64,000 nt of DNA from Phycisphaerae bacterium (GTDB lineage: Bacteria; Planctomycetota; Phycisphaerae; Sedimentisphaerales; Anaerohalosphaeraceae). The stretch lies in the NCBI GenBank assembly GCA_012729675.1, contig JAAYCR010000070.1, forward strand, positions 1 through 64,000, in the 5' to 3' direction. The position numbers were made by a program, and so were the translations under genes. Shown here piece by piece: positions 44,877-52,023 of the stretch. Positions within the stretch are counted from its first letter, which is position 1, and every line of letters starts with the position of its first letter. Below the pieces are notes generated by a model, which was not told the DNA's origin, ran no database searches, and saw nothing but the letters and a program-made list of their open reading frames with translations.

Positions 44877-45476
44877 ATGCTTGCGGCTCGGCACAATCCG
44901 TTCGGAGCCGGCCATCTTGGCACCATCGACTATATCCCGCAGAAACTGTCATGGGAGCAGCTTCTGATTCGGCTTAAGGAGCTTGACTCCACCGCCGCGC
45001 TCGTCGGGCCGCACGGCAGCGGAAAGACGACGCTCTTGAAGAGTCTTGAAAAACGGCTGCGTGAGGCGGGAATACCAACGGCGATGCTGTTTGTCAGTCT
45101 GGATGTCGCCCTGCCGTGGCCGGTCATCCGCGAGACGGTCCAATCGCTGCCGCCCTATGGCGTCCTGTGCTTTGACGGCGCCTGCCATTTGCCGTTTATC
45201 AGATTCAGACAACTTCGCTATCTGATACGCAAACAACATGCCGGGTTGATCATCACCAGCCACGACGAAGGCCTTCTGCCGACGCTGATCCAGTGCCAGC
45301 CCCGGCTTGAACTGCTGACAGAACTGACCTGCCGCCTGCTGAAAGAAAAGGACGCCATTGCACCGTCGCATCTGGCCACACTTTTTGAGACGCACAAGGG
45401 AAATGTTCGCGATTGTCTTTGGCAGCTTTATGATGAATATGCCGATAATCTGCCGGTTTTCAGCTCGTGCCGGTGA
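44877..45476 (+). CDS. Small P-loop ATPase
   Basis: A 199-residue AAA-like NTPase. Walker A is LVGPHGSGKTTLLKS near residue 42; Walker B is GVLCFDGA near 99; a sensor-like ITSHDEG follows. The helical C-terminal part may be a lid. It is too short for full AAA+ and resembles bacterial ATPases of unknown function. It starts immediately after the arrestin-like gene's stop and precedes the trp promoter, whose own strong -35/-10 shows it is not part of the trp operon. Confidence 0.7.
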   Translation: MLAARHNPFGAGHLGTIDYIPQKLSWEQLLIRLKELDSTAALVGPHGSGKTTLLKSLEKRLREAGIPTAMLFVSLDVALPWPVIRETVQSLPPYGVLCFDGACHLPFIRFRQLRYLIRKQHAGLIITSHDEGLLPTLIQCQPRLELLTELTCRLLKEKDAIAPSHLATLFETHKGNVRDCLWQLYDEYADNLPVFSSCR

Positions 45477-45524: not shown

Positions 45525-45553
45525 TTGACACCGGGGTGTAAAATCAGTATAAT
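45525..45553 (+). promoter_or_regulatory. Consensus sigma70 promoter of the trp operon
   Basis: Perfect TTGACA (45525-45530) and perfect TATAAT (45548-45553) with a 17-nt spacer. Transcription should begin near 45560, at or next to the trpL start codon. Confidence 0.92.
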
Positions 45554-45560
45554 TGTTTCT

Positions 45561-45614
45561 ATGGATAGAAACAAAAGAGTCAATCTGGGTTGGTGGTGGC
45601 GGCCTGAAGGATAA
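45561..45614 (+). CDS. trpL: trp operon leader peptide
   Basis: A 17-codon open frame, MDRNKRVNLGWWWRPEG, with three adjacent Trp codons (45591-45599). Ribosome stalling there under Trp shortage would prevent the attenuator at 45661. The ATG begins about 7 nt after the -10 box, so the mRNA is probably leaderless or nearly so; no ribosome-binding site is possible. Too short for automatic gene callers. Confidence 0.9.
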   Translation: MDRNKRVNLGWWWRPEG

Positions 45615-45634
45615 GCCCAGGCAGCAGACCCGAT
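45582..45634 (+). promoter_or_regulatory. Probable 1:2 pause structure of the trp attenuator
   Basis: AATCTGGGT (45582-45590), next to the Trp codons, can pair with ACCCGATT downstream (about 45628-45635), bringing them into a pause-type hairpin. The exact antiterminator could not be resolved by eye. Confidence 0.5.
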
Positions 45635-45660
45635 TTGTCTTTATTCTTATCGTTTTGAAT

Positions 45661-45695
45661 GCAACCTGCGGCTCGATTCTCAGGTTGCTTTTTTT
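45661..45695 (+). terminator. trp attenuator terminator
   Basis: Stem GCAACCTG (45661-45668) with CAGGTTGC (45681-45688), 12-nt loop, then seven T. It lies between trpL and trpE, as expected for transcription attenuation. Confidence 0.92.
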
Positions 45696-45727: not shown

Positions 45728-47353
45728 ATGTCAGATTATGAAAAAAGAATCCATCAGGCCCGGCCGGGGCAAATCATCCCGATGGTGCGGGAAATCGACA
45801 TTACTTGTCCGGTAGAGTTTTTTGCCAGGCTCAGCGACTATGGCCGTAAGAAGCACTGCTGCCTGCTCGAATCGCGGGACTACCTGACCGAGGGCGACGC
45901 GGGCGAGTTGACGTTCGGCACGACCGACCCGGCGCTGCACTTGACCGGCCGGGGTAATCGGTTCAGCATTGAGGCCCTGACGCCGACGGGACGGCGGATG
46001 CTGGCGTATTTTGCCGAGCATCGCGAGCGGTTCGCATTCTGCAAGTCGATTGCGTTCGCCCCGGAGTGCATCACAGGAGAGCTTGAGCCAAATGAAGACG
46101 TGATGGACGAGGAATCGCGGCTCAAACGTGTCAACCAGATGGACGTGCTGCGGGCGGTGGGGTTTGCGTTTGAACTGGCCAGCAAGCCCTTTCGCGTCAC
46201 GTGCGGGCTGGTGGGGGCGCTGAGCTATGACTTCATCGACCAGTTTGAAAAACTGCCGGACAACGCCCACGACGTGCTGGGCAATCCGGATTATGAGCTG
46301 TATTTTGCCGACAACATCTTTTTGATGGATCACCGCAAGGGCAAAGGCCACATCATCGTCAACGCCATCATCACCAACGGCAACCGGGATGAGATTTGCC
46401 GACAAGCGGAGGACTGCTTTGACAGCTATTTCGAACGCGCCGCGTCCCAGCGGCCTGTGCCGACCCCCCCGCCTTCGCTTTCGACCGGCCCCGGCACCGA
46501 CACGCCGCAGGCCGCGTATGAGGCGATGGTCAAAACGGCCAAGCAGCACATTCTGGACGGCGATATTTTTCAGGTGGTGCTGAGCCGGACGCTTTCCGAG
46601 CCGTGCCCGGCCGAGCCGCTGGATGTCTATCGGCAGCTTCGCAAGCTCAACCCGTCGCCCTATATGTTTTACATCAACACCCCCTCGACCGTGCTGATGG
46701 GGGCAAGCCCGGAACTGAATCTTCGCGTCAGCGGAACCAACGAGCGGACAGTGGAGATTCGCCCCATCGCCGGCACCAAGCCGCGCGGACGCATCGGCGG
46801 CAAGATCGACCCCGACACCGATATGCGCTACGAGGCCGAGCTGAAACTCGACCGCAAGGAACTGGCCGAACACATGATGCTGGTGGATTTGGCGCGGAAC
46901 GACATCGCCCGCGTGGCCAAGCCCGGCAGCCGGATTGTCAACGAAATGCTCATCACCGAGCGATATGAATCGGTGATGCACTTGGTCAGCAACGTCAGAG
47001 GCAAGCTGCGGGAGGACCTCGATGCGCTCAGCGCGTATCTGGCGACGATGAATATGGGCACGCTGACGGGCGCGCCGAAGATTGAGGCGATGAAGATTAT
47101 CCGCAGGCTGGAGAAGAATAAACGCGGCTACTACGGCGGCGCAGTGATGTATCTGACCGTGGACGGACAGTTTGACAGTTGCATCACGATTCGCAGCCTG
47201 CAAGTGCGGGATCATACCGCGTATATCCGGGCGGGGGCGGGCATCGTGCATGACAGCGTCCCGACGACGGAATTTGACGAAACCGAACACAAGGCCAACT
47301 CGTGCCTCAAGGCCATTCGTGCGGCCGCGGCGGCAGTAACGCGGCGGGAATGA
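45728..47353 (+). CDS. trpE: Anthranilate synthase component I
   Basis: A 541-residue chorismate-utilising enzyme. The N-terminal feedback-binding motif LLES lies in CCLLESRDYL near residue 46. The catalytic C-terminal domain contains DGDIFQVVLSRTL, IRPIAGTKPRGR, the metal region LVDLARNDIARVAKPGS, and GTLTGAPKIEAM. With TrpG it makes anthranilate from chorismate and glutamine. First structural gene after the attenuator. Confidence 0.97.
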   Translation: MSDYEKRIHQARPGQIIPMVREIDITCPVEFFARLSDYGRKKHCCLLESRDYLTEGDAGELTFGTTDPALHLTGRGNRFSIEALTPTGRRMLAYFAEHRERFAFCKSIAFAPECITGELEPNEDVMDEESRLKRVNQMDVLRAVGFAFELASKPFRVTCGLVGALSYDFIDQFEKLPDNAHDVLGNPDYELYFADNIFLMDHRKGKGHIIVNAIITNGNRDEICRQAEDCFDSYFERAASQRPVPTPPPSLSTGPGTDTPQAAYEAMVKTAKQHILDGDIFQVVLSRTLSEPCPAEPLDVYRQLRKLNPSPYMFYINTPSTVLMGASPELNLRVSGTNERTVEIRPIAGTKPRGRIGGKIDPDTDMRYEAELKLDRKELAEHMMLVDLARNDIARVAKPGSRIVNEMLITERYESVMHLVSNVRGKLREDLDALSAYLATMNMGTLTGAPKIEAMKIIRRLEKNKRGYYGGAVMYLTVDGQFDSCITIRSLQVRDHTAYIRAGAGIVHDSVPTTEFDETEHKANSCLKAIRAAAAAVTRRE

Positions 47354-47473: not shown

Positions 47474-47514
47474 CTTACTCACTCTCGTCTCTTCGGGACT
47501 TTGGAGAATGGACT

Positions 47515-48105
47515 ATGACTGAACATGCGACCAAGGTGCTGTTTATCGACAACTTCGACTCGTTTACCTACAACCTGGTGGATGAGTTTGCCAAGCGCAA
47601 CTGCCCAACGAAGGTCTATCGCGCCGACACGCCGCTGACCGAACTGGTGCGGGCGGCTGAAGCGTTTGAGCCGAACTTACTGGTGCTCTCGCCGGGGCCG
47701 GGGAATCCCTCGACGGCCGGCGTTACGCTGGAGGCGATTGAGTATTTTCACGATAAGCTGTGCATGTTCGGCGTATGCCTGGGGCATCAGGCGATTGTGC
47801 AGTATTTCGGCGGAACCATCGGGCATGCGCCTGAGGTGATGCACGGCAAACCGTCGCGGATCACGCACGACCGCAGCGGCGTCTTTGACGGGCTGGACAA
47901 CCCCTTGCAGATCGGACGGTATCACAGCCTGTGCGCGACGCGATTACCCGTGTGCCTTCGGCAGACGGCGGCGTTTGAGTCGATTGTGATGGGCGTTGAG
48001 CACACCGCCCTGCCAATCCACGGCGTGCAGTTTCATCCGGAAAGCATCCTGACGCCCGCCGGCGGACGAATCATAGAGAATGTTCTAAAAATTGCTAAAC
48101 AATGA
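47515..48105 (+). CDS. trpG: Anthranilate synthase component II (glutamine amidotransferase)
   Basis: A 196-residue class I amidotransferase subunit. It opens with VLFIDNFDSFTYNLVDEF, has the catalytic Cys in GVCLGHQAIVQYFGG, and the His-Glu pair in HGVQFHPESILT. The start at 47515 follows GGAGAATG; the frame is open further upstream, but that sequence is repeat DNA. Could also serve as PabA. Confidence 0.96.
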   Translation: MTEHATKVLFIDNFDSFTYNLVDEFAKRNCPTKVYRADTPLTELVRAAEAFEPNLLVLSPGPGNPSTAGVTLEAIEYFHDKLCMFGVCLGHQAIVQYFGGTIGHAPEVMHGKPSRITHDRSGVFDGLDNPLQIGRYHSLCATRLPVCLRQTAAFESIVMGVEHTALPIHGVQFHPESILTPAGGRIIENVLKIAKQ

Positions 48106-48123: not shown

Positions 48124-49140
48124 ATGGCCAAGATTACGGAGTATCTGGAACTGATTCTGGAAGGACACGACCTGTCGTTTGAGCAGGCTGAGGCGCTGCT
48201 GGATGTGATTTTCGAGGGAGGCGTCTCGGAGGTGCAGATCGCGGCGTTTCTGGCGGCGATGCGCGTCAAGAAGGCAGCGGTTTCGGAGATCGCAGGGCTG
48301 GCGACCTCGCTGCGCAAGCACGCCGTGCCGGTGAAGGTCGATGTGCCACATCTGATCGACACCTGCGGTACGGGCGGCGCGGTAATGAAGACGTTCAACA
48401 TCTCGACCGCGACGGCCTTTGTGGCCGCGGGGGCGGGGGCGTATGTCGCCAAGCACGGCAACAAGGGCATCACCAGCGTCTGCGGCTCGGCGGATGTGCT
48501 GACGGCGCTGGGGGTCAATGTCGCGCCGGGGCCGGAGCGTGTGGCCGAGTGCATCGAAAAGGCGCATATCGGGTTTATGTTCGCCCCAAAGTATCACCCG
48601 GCGATGAAGCATGTCCAGCCGGTACGACAGAGCCTGGACTTTCACACGGCGTTCAACATCCTCGGCCCGCTGGCCAACCCGGCCAATGTACCCGCACAGG
48701 TGATGGGCGTCTCGGATGCATCGCTGATGGAGCGTATCATCGTGACCCTCGGCCAATTGGGACACAAACGGGCAATGGTCGTCCACAGCAACGGGCTGGA
48801 TGAGATCAGCACGATGGGGCCGACGCACATCCTGCACCTCAAAGACGGGCAGATCAGCCAAGAAACGCTGGACCCGACCCAGTACGGCTTCCGGCTGGCC
48901 GATTTTAACGAGCTATCCGGGGGCGATGCGGTGGCCAATGCGCAGATTATCCGGGCGATTCTGGCCGGTCAGGAAGGCGGAGCCAAAAAAGATATCGTGC
49001 TTTTGAACGCCGCGGCGGCTATAATGGTCGCCGGGTTGGCCGAGGATTTTGTCGAAGGCGTCAAAAAAGCCGACCAATCCATCGCCTCCGGCAGCGCGCT
49101 GGAGTGTTTGGAAAAAATAGTAGAGATGAGCAATGGATAA
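48124..49140 (+). CDS. trpD: Anthranilate phosphoribosyltransferase
   Basis: A 338-residue enzyme joining anthranilate to PRPP. The PRPP-binding motif DTCGTGG is followed by KTFNISTATAFVAAGAG and VAKHGNKGITS; MFAPKYHPAMKHVQPVR is the substrate site. AGGAG precedes the start. Next would normally be trpC, but the following gene is trpF. Confidence 0.97.
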   Translation: MAKITEYLELILEGHDLSFEQAEALLDVIFEGGVSEVQIAAFLAAMRVKKAAVSEIAGLATSLRKHAVPVKVDVPHLIDTCGTGGAVMKTFNISTATAFVAAGAGAYVAKHGNKGITSVCGSADVLTALGVNVAPGPERVAECIEKAHIGFMFAPKYHPAMKHVQPVRQSLDFHTAFNILGPLANPANVPAQVMGVSDASLMERIIVTLGQLGHKRAMVVHSNGLDEISTMGPTHILHLKDGQISQETLDPTQYGFRLADFNELSGGDAVANAQIIRAILAGQEGGAKKDIVLLNAAAAIMVAGLAEDFVEGVKKADQSIASGSALECLEKIVEMSNG

Positions 49141-49305
49141 AAAAATTCAAAATGAAAAGTCAATAATTTAAAACCAGAACTCAAAATTGAAATCTGTTTC
49201 GGCGGACAGTCATTTTGAACTTTAAACTTTGGTTTTGCATTTTGGACTTTAACTTTCAACCTTTTTGATGGGCTAAAGCCCATCCTACGAACTACGAACT
49301 AATTG
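49141..49305. repeat. AT-rich heptad palindrome between trpD and trpF
   Basis: The 167-nt gap is 7-nt-periodic: AAAAATT-like units on the left and CATTTTG, AACTTTA, AACTTTG, ATTTTGG units on the right, able to pair. A short palindrome (GATGGGCT/AGCCCATC, 49267-49284) and CTACGAA units (49285-49298) lie next to the trpF start. No trpC remnant is visible. Confidence 0.65.
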
Positions 49306-49307
49306 AA

Positions 49308-49945
49308 ATGATTATCAACATTAAAGTCAAAATTTGCGGTATCACGAATCTGGATGATGCACAGGCCGCCTTTGAGTTGGGCGCCGATATGCTCGGCTTT
49401 AACTTTTATCCCCAAAGCCCGCGTTATATCAAGCCCGAAGAGGCGATCAAAATCATCCGCAAGCTGCCGACCTTTGTCGATAGCGTCGGCCTGTTCGTGA
49501 ACGCTCCGATTGAGGAGATCAGGGACGTTGCCGAGACGGGCTATCTGAGCTGGGTTCAACTGCATGGCGATGAGACGCCGGAGTTTTGCGACAACGTGCG
49601 ATTTTCAAATATTCGCACCATCAAGGCCATCCGCGTCAAAACCGAAGAGGATGTACACGCAACCCAGGAATATTATACCTATGCCGTGCTGCTGGACGCT
49701 TTTTCGTCCAAACGGTACGGCGGCACGGGAATACAATTCAACTGGGAATGGGCGAAAAATCTGCCCAAGCGAATCTTTCTGGCCGGTGGCATTACGCCGG
49801 AAAATGTCGAACAAGCGATCCGCACCGGCGTCTATGGGATCGATATTTGCAGCGGCATTGAGTCGGCGCCGGGCGTCAAAGACCACGAAAAAATGAAGCG
49901 GCTGTTCGAGATGATACGCCGCACCACAGGATTAAAGGCTGCACG

Positions 49946-49949
<4 letters not shown>
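49308..49949 (+). CDS. trpF: Phosphoribosylanthranilate isomerase
   Basis: A 213-residue TIM-barrel isomerase. [12 protein letters not shown] carries the catalytic Cys at the first strand; the catalytic Asp is in [17 protein letters not shown], and phosphate-binding loops [14 protein letters not shown] and [16 protein letters not shown] follow. Its stop overlaps the trpB start by 4 nt. Confidence 0.96.
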
Positions 49950-51110
<1,161 letters not shown>

Positions 51111-51118
<8 letters not shown>

Positions 51119-51196
51119 AAAGTAAAAAGGCAAAAGGTAAAATTAAGGAACTTCCTTCATTTTCACTTTTGCCCTTTACCTTTTCACTTTTTATTG
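51111..51196. repeat. AT-rich heptad palindrome between trpB and trpA
   Basis: AAAAAGT, AAAAAGG, CAAAAGG, TAAAATT units (from 51117) mirrored by ATTTTCA, CTTTTGC, CCTTTAC, CTTTTCA, CTTTTTA. The arms form a hairpin of about 35 bp, unusually large for an intercistronic gap. It lies directly upstream of the trpA ribosome-binding site. Confidence 0.75.
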
Positions 51197-51204
51197 AGGA
51201 TTGT

Positions 51205-52023
51205 ATGGGACGTTATCAGGACGTGTTTGACAGCTTGAATCGGGCGGCGATGATCCCGTTTTTTGTCATCGGCGACCCGGATACCGAAACCAGTCTGCGG
51301 ATCGTCAAGACGGCCATTGACGCCGGGGCGGACATTCTGGAACTGGGCATCCCGTTTTCCGACCCCGTTGCCGACGGACCGACGATTCAGAAGGCCGACA
51401 TCCGCGCCCTAAAGGCGGGAATGACGCCACAAAAAGCCTTGGCGTTCATCGCTCAGGTCTCGGCCTACAAGCCTATCCCCATCGGCCTGTTGGTCTATTA
51501 CAATCTGATTTATCAGTACGGGGTGGACGCCTTTTACCGTGATTTCAAACAGGCTGGCGGAACCAGCGTGCTGGTGGCGGATGTGAGCATTGACGACGCC
51601 GAAGAGATCGCCCCGGCGGCGCTGCGGGCCGGGCTGGAAACCGTCTTTATGGCCACCCCCAACTGCCCTGACGAACGCCTCCAACAGGTTGTCAAATACA
51701 CCACAGGCTTTATCTATACGGTGTCCCTGCTGGGAACGACGGGGGAAAGGCAAAGATTCTCCACGTTGGCCAAACCACTCATTCAACGACTCAAACGCCT
51801 GACCCAAACCCCCGTGTGCGTGGGCTTCGGCATCAGCAGCCCCGAGCACGCCCGTCAGGTCGCCGCTGACGGCGCCAACGGCGTCATCATCGGCAGCCGA
51901 CTTGTCAAAATCATCGAAGACAATCTAAACGACAAAGACCAACTCTATTGTCAGCTTCAAGCGTTTCTGGCCGAAACCCTCAACGCCCTCAAAACCGTTC
52001 AGGATGACACTTCAGCCAACTGA
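51205..52023 (+). CDS. trpA: Tryptophan synthase alpha chain
   Basis: A 272-residue TIM barrel releasing indole from indole-glycerol phosphate. The catalytic Glu and Asp lie in LELGIPFSDPVADGPTIQ. Phosphate-binding segments VGFGISSPEHARQVA and GVIIGSRLVK are intact. The start at 51205 follows TGAGGA; the frame upstream is repeat DNA. Last gene of the operon; a terminator follows 18 nt on. Confidence 0.97.
   Translation: MGRYQDVFDSLNRAAMIPFFVIGDPDTETSLRIVKTAIDAGADILELGIPFSDPVADGPTIQKADIRALKAGMTPQKALAFIAQVSAYKPIPIGLLVYYNLIYQYGVDAFYRDFKQAGGTSVLVADVSIDDAEEIAPAALRAGLETVFMATPNCPDERLQQVVKYTTGFIYTVSLLGTTGERQRFSTLAKPLIQRLKRLTQTPVCVGFGISSPEHARQVAADGANGVIIGSRLVKIIEDNLNDKDQLYCQLQAFLAETLNALKTVQDDTSAN

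Follow-up and report, generated by a model that had tools for sequence, protein, structure and literature searches.

A conserved Trp-codon attenuator with a predicted leaderless leader peptide and a candidate TrpR-type operator over its start codon in Planctomycetota

Results

The trp operon and its leader region

The window (the whole analysed stretch of 64,000 nucleotides) stems from genome bin G000 (2.8 Mb, 99.9% complete) and harbours a trp operon that is preceded by a short leader region (Table 1). No trpC was seen between trpD and trpF (window 49141–49307). Upstream of the leader region, an ORF on the same strand ends at 45476. The leader ORF, trpL, contains three consecutive UGG codons (at 45591, 45594, and 45597), ends with a stop codon at 45612–45614, and is headed by a promoter that matches the consensus at 12 of 12 positions (TTGACA-17-TATAAT), while shuffled sequences averaged 0.5 matches of at least 9/12 per 1.2 kb. 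The distance from the -10 box to the trpL ATG (45561) is 7 nt. TTG and GTG codons inside the promoter (e.g. TTG 45525) were rejected as leader starts, as they are located in the -35 box. Downstream of trpL, the arms of an intrinsic terminator, GCAACCTG and CAGGTTGC (45661–45688; -12.4 kcal/mol), are followed by T7 at 45689–45695. Promoter and terminator are thus as described in the earlier note on this DNA, which had pointed out a perfect-consensus promoter about 7 nt before the ATG and a run of seven T. A simple consensus scan, limited to loops of 8 nt, left out this terminator with its longer loop. When the window and, separately, the leader were compared with Rfam, nothing relevant (trp leader, T-box, or riboswitch) matched at gathering threshold or E ≤ 10.

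Table 1 Features of the trp leader region, the trp operon, and the TrpR-like gene (window positions unless a contig is given).
Feature	Position	Strand	Basis or remark
-35 box TTGACA	45525–45530	+	TTGACA in 64/82 relatives
-10 box TATAAT	45548–45553	+	17-bp spacer, as in 77/82 relatives
20-bp palindrome TGTTTCTATGGATAGAAACA, candidate TrpR-type operator	45554–45573		Abuts -10 box; overlaps +1, start codon, and codons 2–5
Predicted transcription start (T45560 or A45561)	45560–45561	+	From -10 spacing
trpL leader ORF, MDRNKRVNLGWWWRPEG and stop	45561–45614	+	ORF reading; candidate leaderless start
Strand 1 (CUGGGUU)	45585–45591	+	Pairs with 45614–45620, 7 pairs by eye
Three regulatory Trp codons (WWW)	45591–45599	+	UGG triplets
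Strand 2 (GCCCAGGCAGC)	45615–45625	+	Directly after stop codon; antiterminator pairing with strand 3
Strand 3 (GCAACCUGCGGC)	45661–45672	+	Pairs with strand 2 or strand 4
Strand 4 (CAGGUUGC) and U7 of intrinsic terminator	45681–45695	+	Sequence and hairpin scan
trpE, anthranilate synthase component I	45728–47353	+	Anth_synt_I_N and Chorismate_bind; ATG 45728
trpG	47512–48105	+	Pfam
trpD	48124–49140	+	Pfam
trpF	49308–49949	+	Pfam
trpB	49946–51118	+	Pfam
trpA	51169–52023	+	Translation reading only; ORF as listed, true start probably further in
TrpR-like gene (L214)	G000:C49:25153–25440	minus	Sole PF01371 (Trp repressor family) gene of the genome

Conservation of the leader peptide and the attenuator structures

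We gathered 85 non-redundant regions upstream of TrpE relatives (68–100% identical), 83 of which had enough upstream DNA; down to approximately 68% identity, the named relatives are nearly all labelled Phycisphaerae, Sedimentisphaerales, or other Planctomycetota. A Trp leader was present in all 83 regions, mostly with the motif WWWP. Adjacent Trp codons (WW) occur in 79/83 leaders, and four leaders (L005, L007, L009, and L045) carry one or two separate Trp codons at the same place. Among about 60 distant trpE genes, Trp leaders occurred only occasionally. A hairpin followed by at least four T was called in 81/82 regions by a scan in which a few hairpins exceed their likely true length, and the terminator of L006 is visible by eye.

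The alternative, antiterminating structure is conserved as well. In the window, 45615–45625 (strand 2) can pair with 45661–45672 (strand 3) at -15.9 kcal/mol, and across the relatives the segment just after the leader stop codon, or just before it in longer leaders, pairs with the 5' arm of the terminator (mean z -3.5, 94% below -1). The 1:2 helix of the window adjoins the Trp codons, is weaker than that of the sister group described below, and, with a z of -0.5, is not distinguishable from shuffles. A chance ORF beside the ordinary terminator of an upstream gene, for which the same-strand ORF ending upstream of the promoter could be invoked, has next to no probability: it is refuted by the Trp leader, promoter, and antiterminator conserved before 83/83 trpE genes. 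The earlier note had proposed a Trp-codon attenuator and named a lack of conserved Trp codons and terminator in relatives as a refutation. This check came out in favour of the note, as leader, promoter-ATG spacing, antiterminator, and terminator all proved to be conserved across the order, and we regard it as highly likely that this is a genuine, conserved trp attenuator that acts by attenuation.

Twenty sister sequences showed 96.9% (terminator), 95.0% (antiterminator), and 88.2% (1:2 helix) paired positions, with double changes at 2, 3, and 6 pairs, respectively. Their paired fraction and covariation score exceeded those of nearly all shuffles and of every slid version. The 1:2 helix of this group differs from that of the window in that it uses leader codons 3–6, whose pairing partner in the MRQINRKN leaders of L065, L072, L078, L110, and their relatives lies downstream of strand 2. 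Because these codons are paired, the conserved QINR residues of the sister leaders look like conservation at the RNA level. Four other relatives (L057, L060, L071, and L074) have longer leaders with a PTGER or PAGKR ending, in which strand 2 is part of the ORF and the stop codon follows directly; in sequence terms, this is another way for a terminating ribosome to mask strand 2.

Promoter geometry points to a leaderless trpL

The short distance between promoter and leader ORF is a common property of the relatives. With a single -35/-10 model, the trpL ATG lies 5–11 nt after a sigma70-type -10 box in 74/82 leaders, and the remaining ones are, by eye, mostly scan artefacts, in which the -10 box reads CATAAT or a further in-frame ATG is present. 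The -10 model was relaxed at its second position, as the sister-group boxes TTTAAT and TCTAAT have no A there. A promoter score of at least 9.5 combined with a gap of 5–10 nt to the ATG was found for 87% of the leaders versus 0.8% of shuffles, and a promoter score of at least 9.5 at 5–10 nt for 0/78 starts of trpE itself. Shine-Dalgarno (SD)-like matches are at most 3 nt long in 77/79 leaders, compared with at least 4 nt in 56/75 trpE starts. L011 and L030 have a first ATG that coincides in part with the -10 box, and their next in-frame ATG is located 7 nt after the box, which fits the promoter reading. The in-frame upstream ATGs of L011, L074, L030, L028, and L064 were rejected as starts because of their position on or shortly behind the -10 box. 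Based on the promoter geometry and the absence of an SD sequence, initiation at trpL is very likely to be leaderless, and the leaderless message suspected in the earlier note is thereby supported as a prediction. A planctomycete examined previously displayed small SD use and a leaderless-or-S1 signature (PMC5397173).

A genuine attenuator could also be read from an unseen promoter further upstream, giving it a normal untranslated region and an SD-independent start. Leaders with untranslated regions of 20–40 nt do exist in the sister families f4 and f5. This explanation is nevertheless highly improbable in view of the 12/12 promoter at trpL, the promoter-ATG spacing conserved in the clade, the lack of an SD sequence, and the fact that no second conserved promoter was noticed in the upstream sequences inspected.

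These leaders of families f4 and f5 (L152, L156, and L157) precede divergent trpE genes of the same order; they are Trp leaders that are not leaderless. When the class was searched for leader and promoter together, scattered matches turned up outside the order; their sequences mostly lack a Trp leader, and they were therefore treated as chance. Within the window's own genome, the pattern TTGAC-18-TNNNAT with an ATG 6–7 nt on marks further leaderless candidates (L123, L125, and L127), comprising one ORF of 228 aa that reads like endonuclease III and two short HTH-like proteins. This pattern plus ATG yielded 17 matches versus 1 for the reversed control, and several of the matches open very short frames.

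A palindrome behind the -10 box covers the trpL start codon

A feature overlooked in the earlier note is the palindromic, TrpR-type candidate operator that overlaps the start codon. The inverted repeat is perfect over 45553–45574 (TTGTTTCTAT GG ATAGAAACAA), and its core TGTTTCT-N6-AGAAACA has its sole perfect copy in the 2.8-Mb genome at trpL. The genome contains two further places with one mismatch, one of which is at the sole PF01371 gene. Several relatives, including some with a different trpE type, carry TGTTTCT-N6-AGAAACA in the same position with respect to the -10 box. Beyond the order, a palindrome match (≤1 mismatch) was obtained in one of about 145 genomes. The position of the palindrome relative to the ATG is not constant: it spans the -35 box in L092 and L029, and in L156 and L152 it lies near +1, with the ATG 16–24 nt or more behind its end. 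At least these two f4/f5 loci keep the operator with an untranslated region of 35–40 nt, so leaderlessness and operator are separable.

Instead of serving as a DNA site, the palindrome might act under attenuation alone as a 5' RNA hairpin that masks the AUG; transcription would then have to start upstream of 45553. Indeed, a single-strand fold pairs 45553–45561 with 45566–45574. The left arm of the palindrome, however, abuts the -10 box and would therefore be untranscribed from the predicted start; moreover, the locations at the -35 box in L092/L029 and near +1 with a more distant ATG in L156/L152, together with the association of the palindrome with a TrpR-family gene and its occurrence at trpR, make an RNA hairpin very unlikely.

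The palindrome co-occurs with a TrpR-like gene

The only PF01371 protein of the genome matches this family with an E-value of 6.8e-17 (62.8 bits; cut-off 27). It reaches 62.1 bits for TIGR01321 (TrpR) and 27 bits for YerC/YecD; as the former is below the equivalog cut-off of 67.25, we refer to the protein as TrpR-like rather than TrpR. In the alignment, its LTP, R, and ITRG segments are retained, and Thr44, Arg54, Arg84, and Gly85 were taken to be Trp contacts. A copy of the palindrome, TGTTTCTATGTCCAGTAACA (G000:C49:25416–25435), spans the start codon of the gene in the same register as at trpL and reads TGTTTCT ATG TCC AGT AAC A, with one mismatch to TGTTTCT-N6-AGAAACA and two to the fuller consensus. 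With a promoter that by eye reads TTTACT...TAAAAT-6-ATG and is weaker than that of trpL, this trpR also appears to be leaderless. In four near relatives (L211, L226, L234, and L235), the palindrome likewise lies across the trpR start codon, which accounts for the MSRNK start of the TrpR-like proteins of close relatives. In L220, L222, and L237 it is located at the trpR promoter, and the ORF starts further downstream. Some other trpR genes, such as L212, L216, and L228, showed no such palindrome.

Comparing 33 genomes with a trp leader locus showed that the palindrome (≤4 mismatches) is present in 15/15 genomes with a PF01371 gene, whereas 17/18 genomes without one contain only shuffle-level matches (≥6 mismatches), the exception being G021, which is 68% complete. 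With relatedness ignored, Fisher's exact test gave p = 1.5e-8 overall and 7e-5 within the family of the window. In families f2, f3, f6, and f7, neither a PF01371 match over the cut-off nor the palindrome was found.

Operators of the TrpR family are palindromes of 20 bp whose half-sites are specific to the lineage, such as TGTAcTnGTnnACnAgTACA for TrpR and TGTAnTArnnnnyTnTTACA for the proteobacterial HisR (PMC9413887). The planctomycete site TGTTTCTATnnATAGAAACA shares its length and the outer TGT/ACA with the E. coli/gammaproteobacterial TrpR consensus and differs in the inner arms. This half-site unlike that of E. coli TrpR, as well as the score below the TrpR equivalog cut-off, would suit an operator of a different DNA-binding protein. 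We consider such a protein unlikely, as the palindrome matches PF01371 in presence and absence, recurs at several trpR genes, and has the 20-bp TGT...ACA layout of the TrpR family. A TrpR-like operator over the start codon is thus the likely identity of 45554–45573.

Discussion

Taken together, our comparative analysis favours a two-tier control of the trp operon, with a probability of roughly 0.8, in which a TrpR-like protein would repress initiation and ribosome-mediated attenuation would operate on a leaderless message. In the first tier, a TrpR-family repressor, whose gene lies at a different locus of the genome, would bind 45554–45573 across +1 and the start codon and block the promoter under abundant Trp; the operator copy over trpR would confer autoregulation. 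In the second tier, transcription would begin at the trpL AUG or within about 1 nt of it, and 70S ribosomes would initiate on the leaderless message. When charged tRNA-Trp is scarce, a ribosome stalled at WWW (45591–45599) would leave strand 2 (45615–45625) free to form the 2:3 antiterminator, so that trpE and the genes behind it would be transcribed. When Trp is plentiful, a ribosome at the stop codon (45612–45614) would cover strand 2 and the 3:4 terminator would form. From established ribosome dimensions, the footprint of a ribosome at the first Trp codon would end near 45603, while that at the stop codon would cover strand 2.

We lean towards a more specific view, in which a diverged TrpR branch of the order has set its operator directly behind the -10 box, such that the operator would also constitute the start and first codons of trpL and trpR and dictate the MxRN starts of the leaders and the MSRN/MSSN starts of the repressors. 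Where trpR is absent, the palindrome would be gone and leaderless attenuation left alone. Candidate DNA operator and coding start use the same bases here, and this overlap would explain conserved residues of the leader peptide without a peptide function. TrpR-positive and TrpR-negative as well as leaderless and non-leaderless loci occur in closely related families and form a natural series in which the separate contributions of repression, attenuation, and leaderless initiation could be compared.

As in our proposal, the E. coli trp operon combines a repressor operator at the promoter with attenuation, and its trpR is autoregulated. In E. coli, trpL is preceded by an untranslated region containing an SD sequence, and the operator lies upstream of the leader ORF. 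Such double control of tryptophan synthesis probably exists also in Planctomycetota, which would extend two-tier trp control to this phylum with a new operator sequence. In the surveyed literature, TrpR-like regulators were mainly those of gammaproteobacteria and Chlamydia: trpR and trpE form the core TrpR regulon, and among Proteobacteria TrpR is described as a conserved feature of gammaproteobacteria that the other classes lack (PMC5343134), and a chlamydial TrpR has been described (PMC7755916). HisR regulons (PMC9413887) resemble the system proposed here in the PF01371 family, 20-bp palindromic operators, lineage-specific half-sites, and frequent autoregulation; HisR, however, controls his genes and responds to histidine, and by NCBIfam the planctomycete protein is nearer TrpR than YerC.

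The earlier note knew of no Trp-codon attenuation described in planctomycetes. We likewise found no open-access paper on trp attenuation or TrpR in planctomycetes, but leaderless trp attenuators as such are known from two other lineages, so for this part only the lineage is new. In the alphaproteobacterium Sinorhizobium meliloti (rnTrpL/peTrpL), the trpLE(G) attenuator also has a Trp-codon leader ORF with its AUG at the RNA 5' end and controls trpE by terminator and antiterminator; unlike in our proposal, trpLE(G) is without transcriptional repression and a start-codon operator is not reported in the consulted part of PMC7298713. Streptomyces lividans trpL1-trpE has a leaderless WWW leader, MFAHSTRNWWWTAHPAAH, before trpE and a Rho-independent terminator. 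It differs from the locus described here in its actinobacterial host and monocistronic trpE, and in that the consulted part of PMC8079986 reports no TrpR-type operator. Attenuators of this kind are known; as far as we found, the novelty lies in how the elements are combined, in the lineage, and in an operator that sits within leaderless start codons.

Outside the families analysed above, further Planctomycetota trpE genes (L166, L183, L185, L186, and L133) are preceded by Trp-rich short ORFs, which by eye start 6–12 nt after -10-like boxes and suggest a broader distribution of leaderless trp leaders across the phylum. In another family, L168 encodes the Trp leader GWWWRH; its possible TTG start lies approximately 28 nt behind a TATAAT box, making it a candidate for a non-leaderless trp attenuator.
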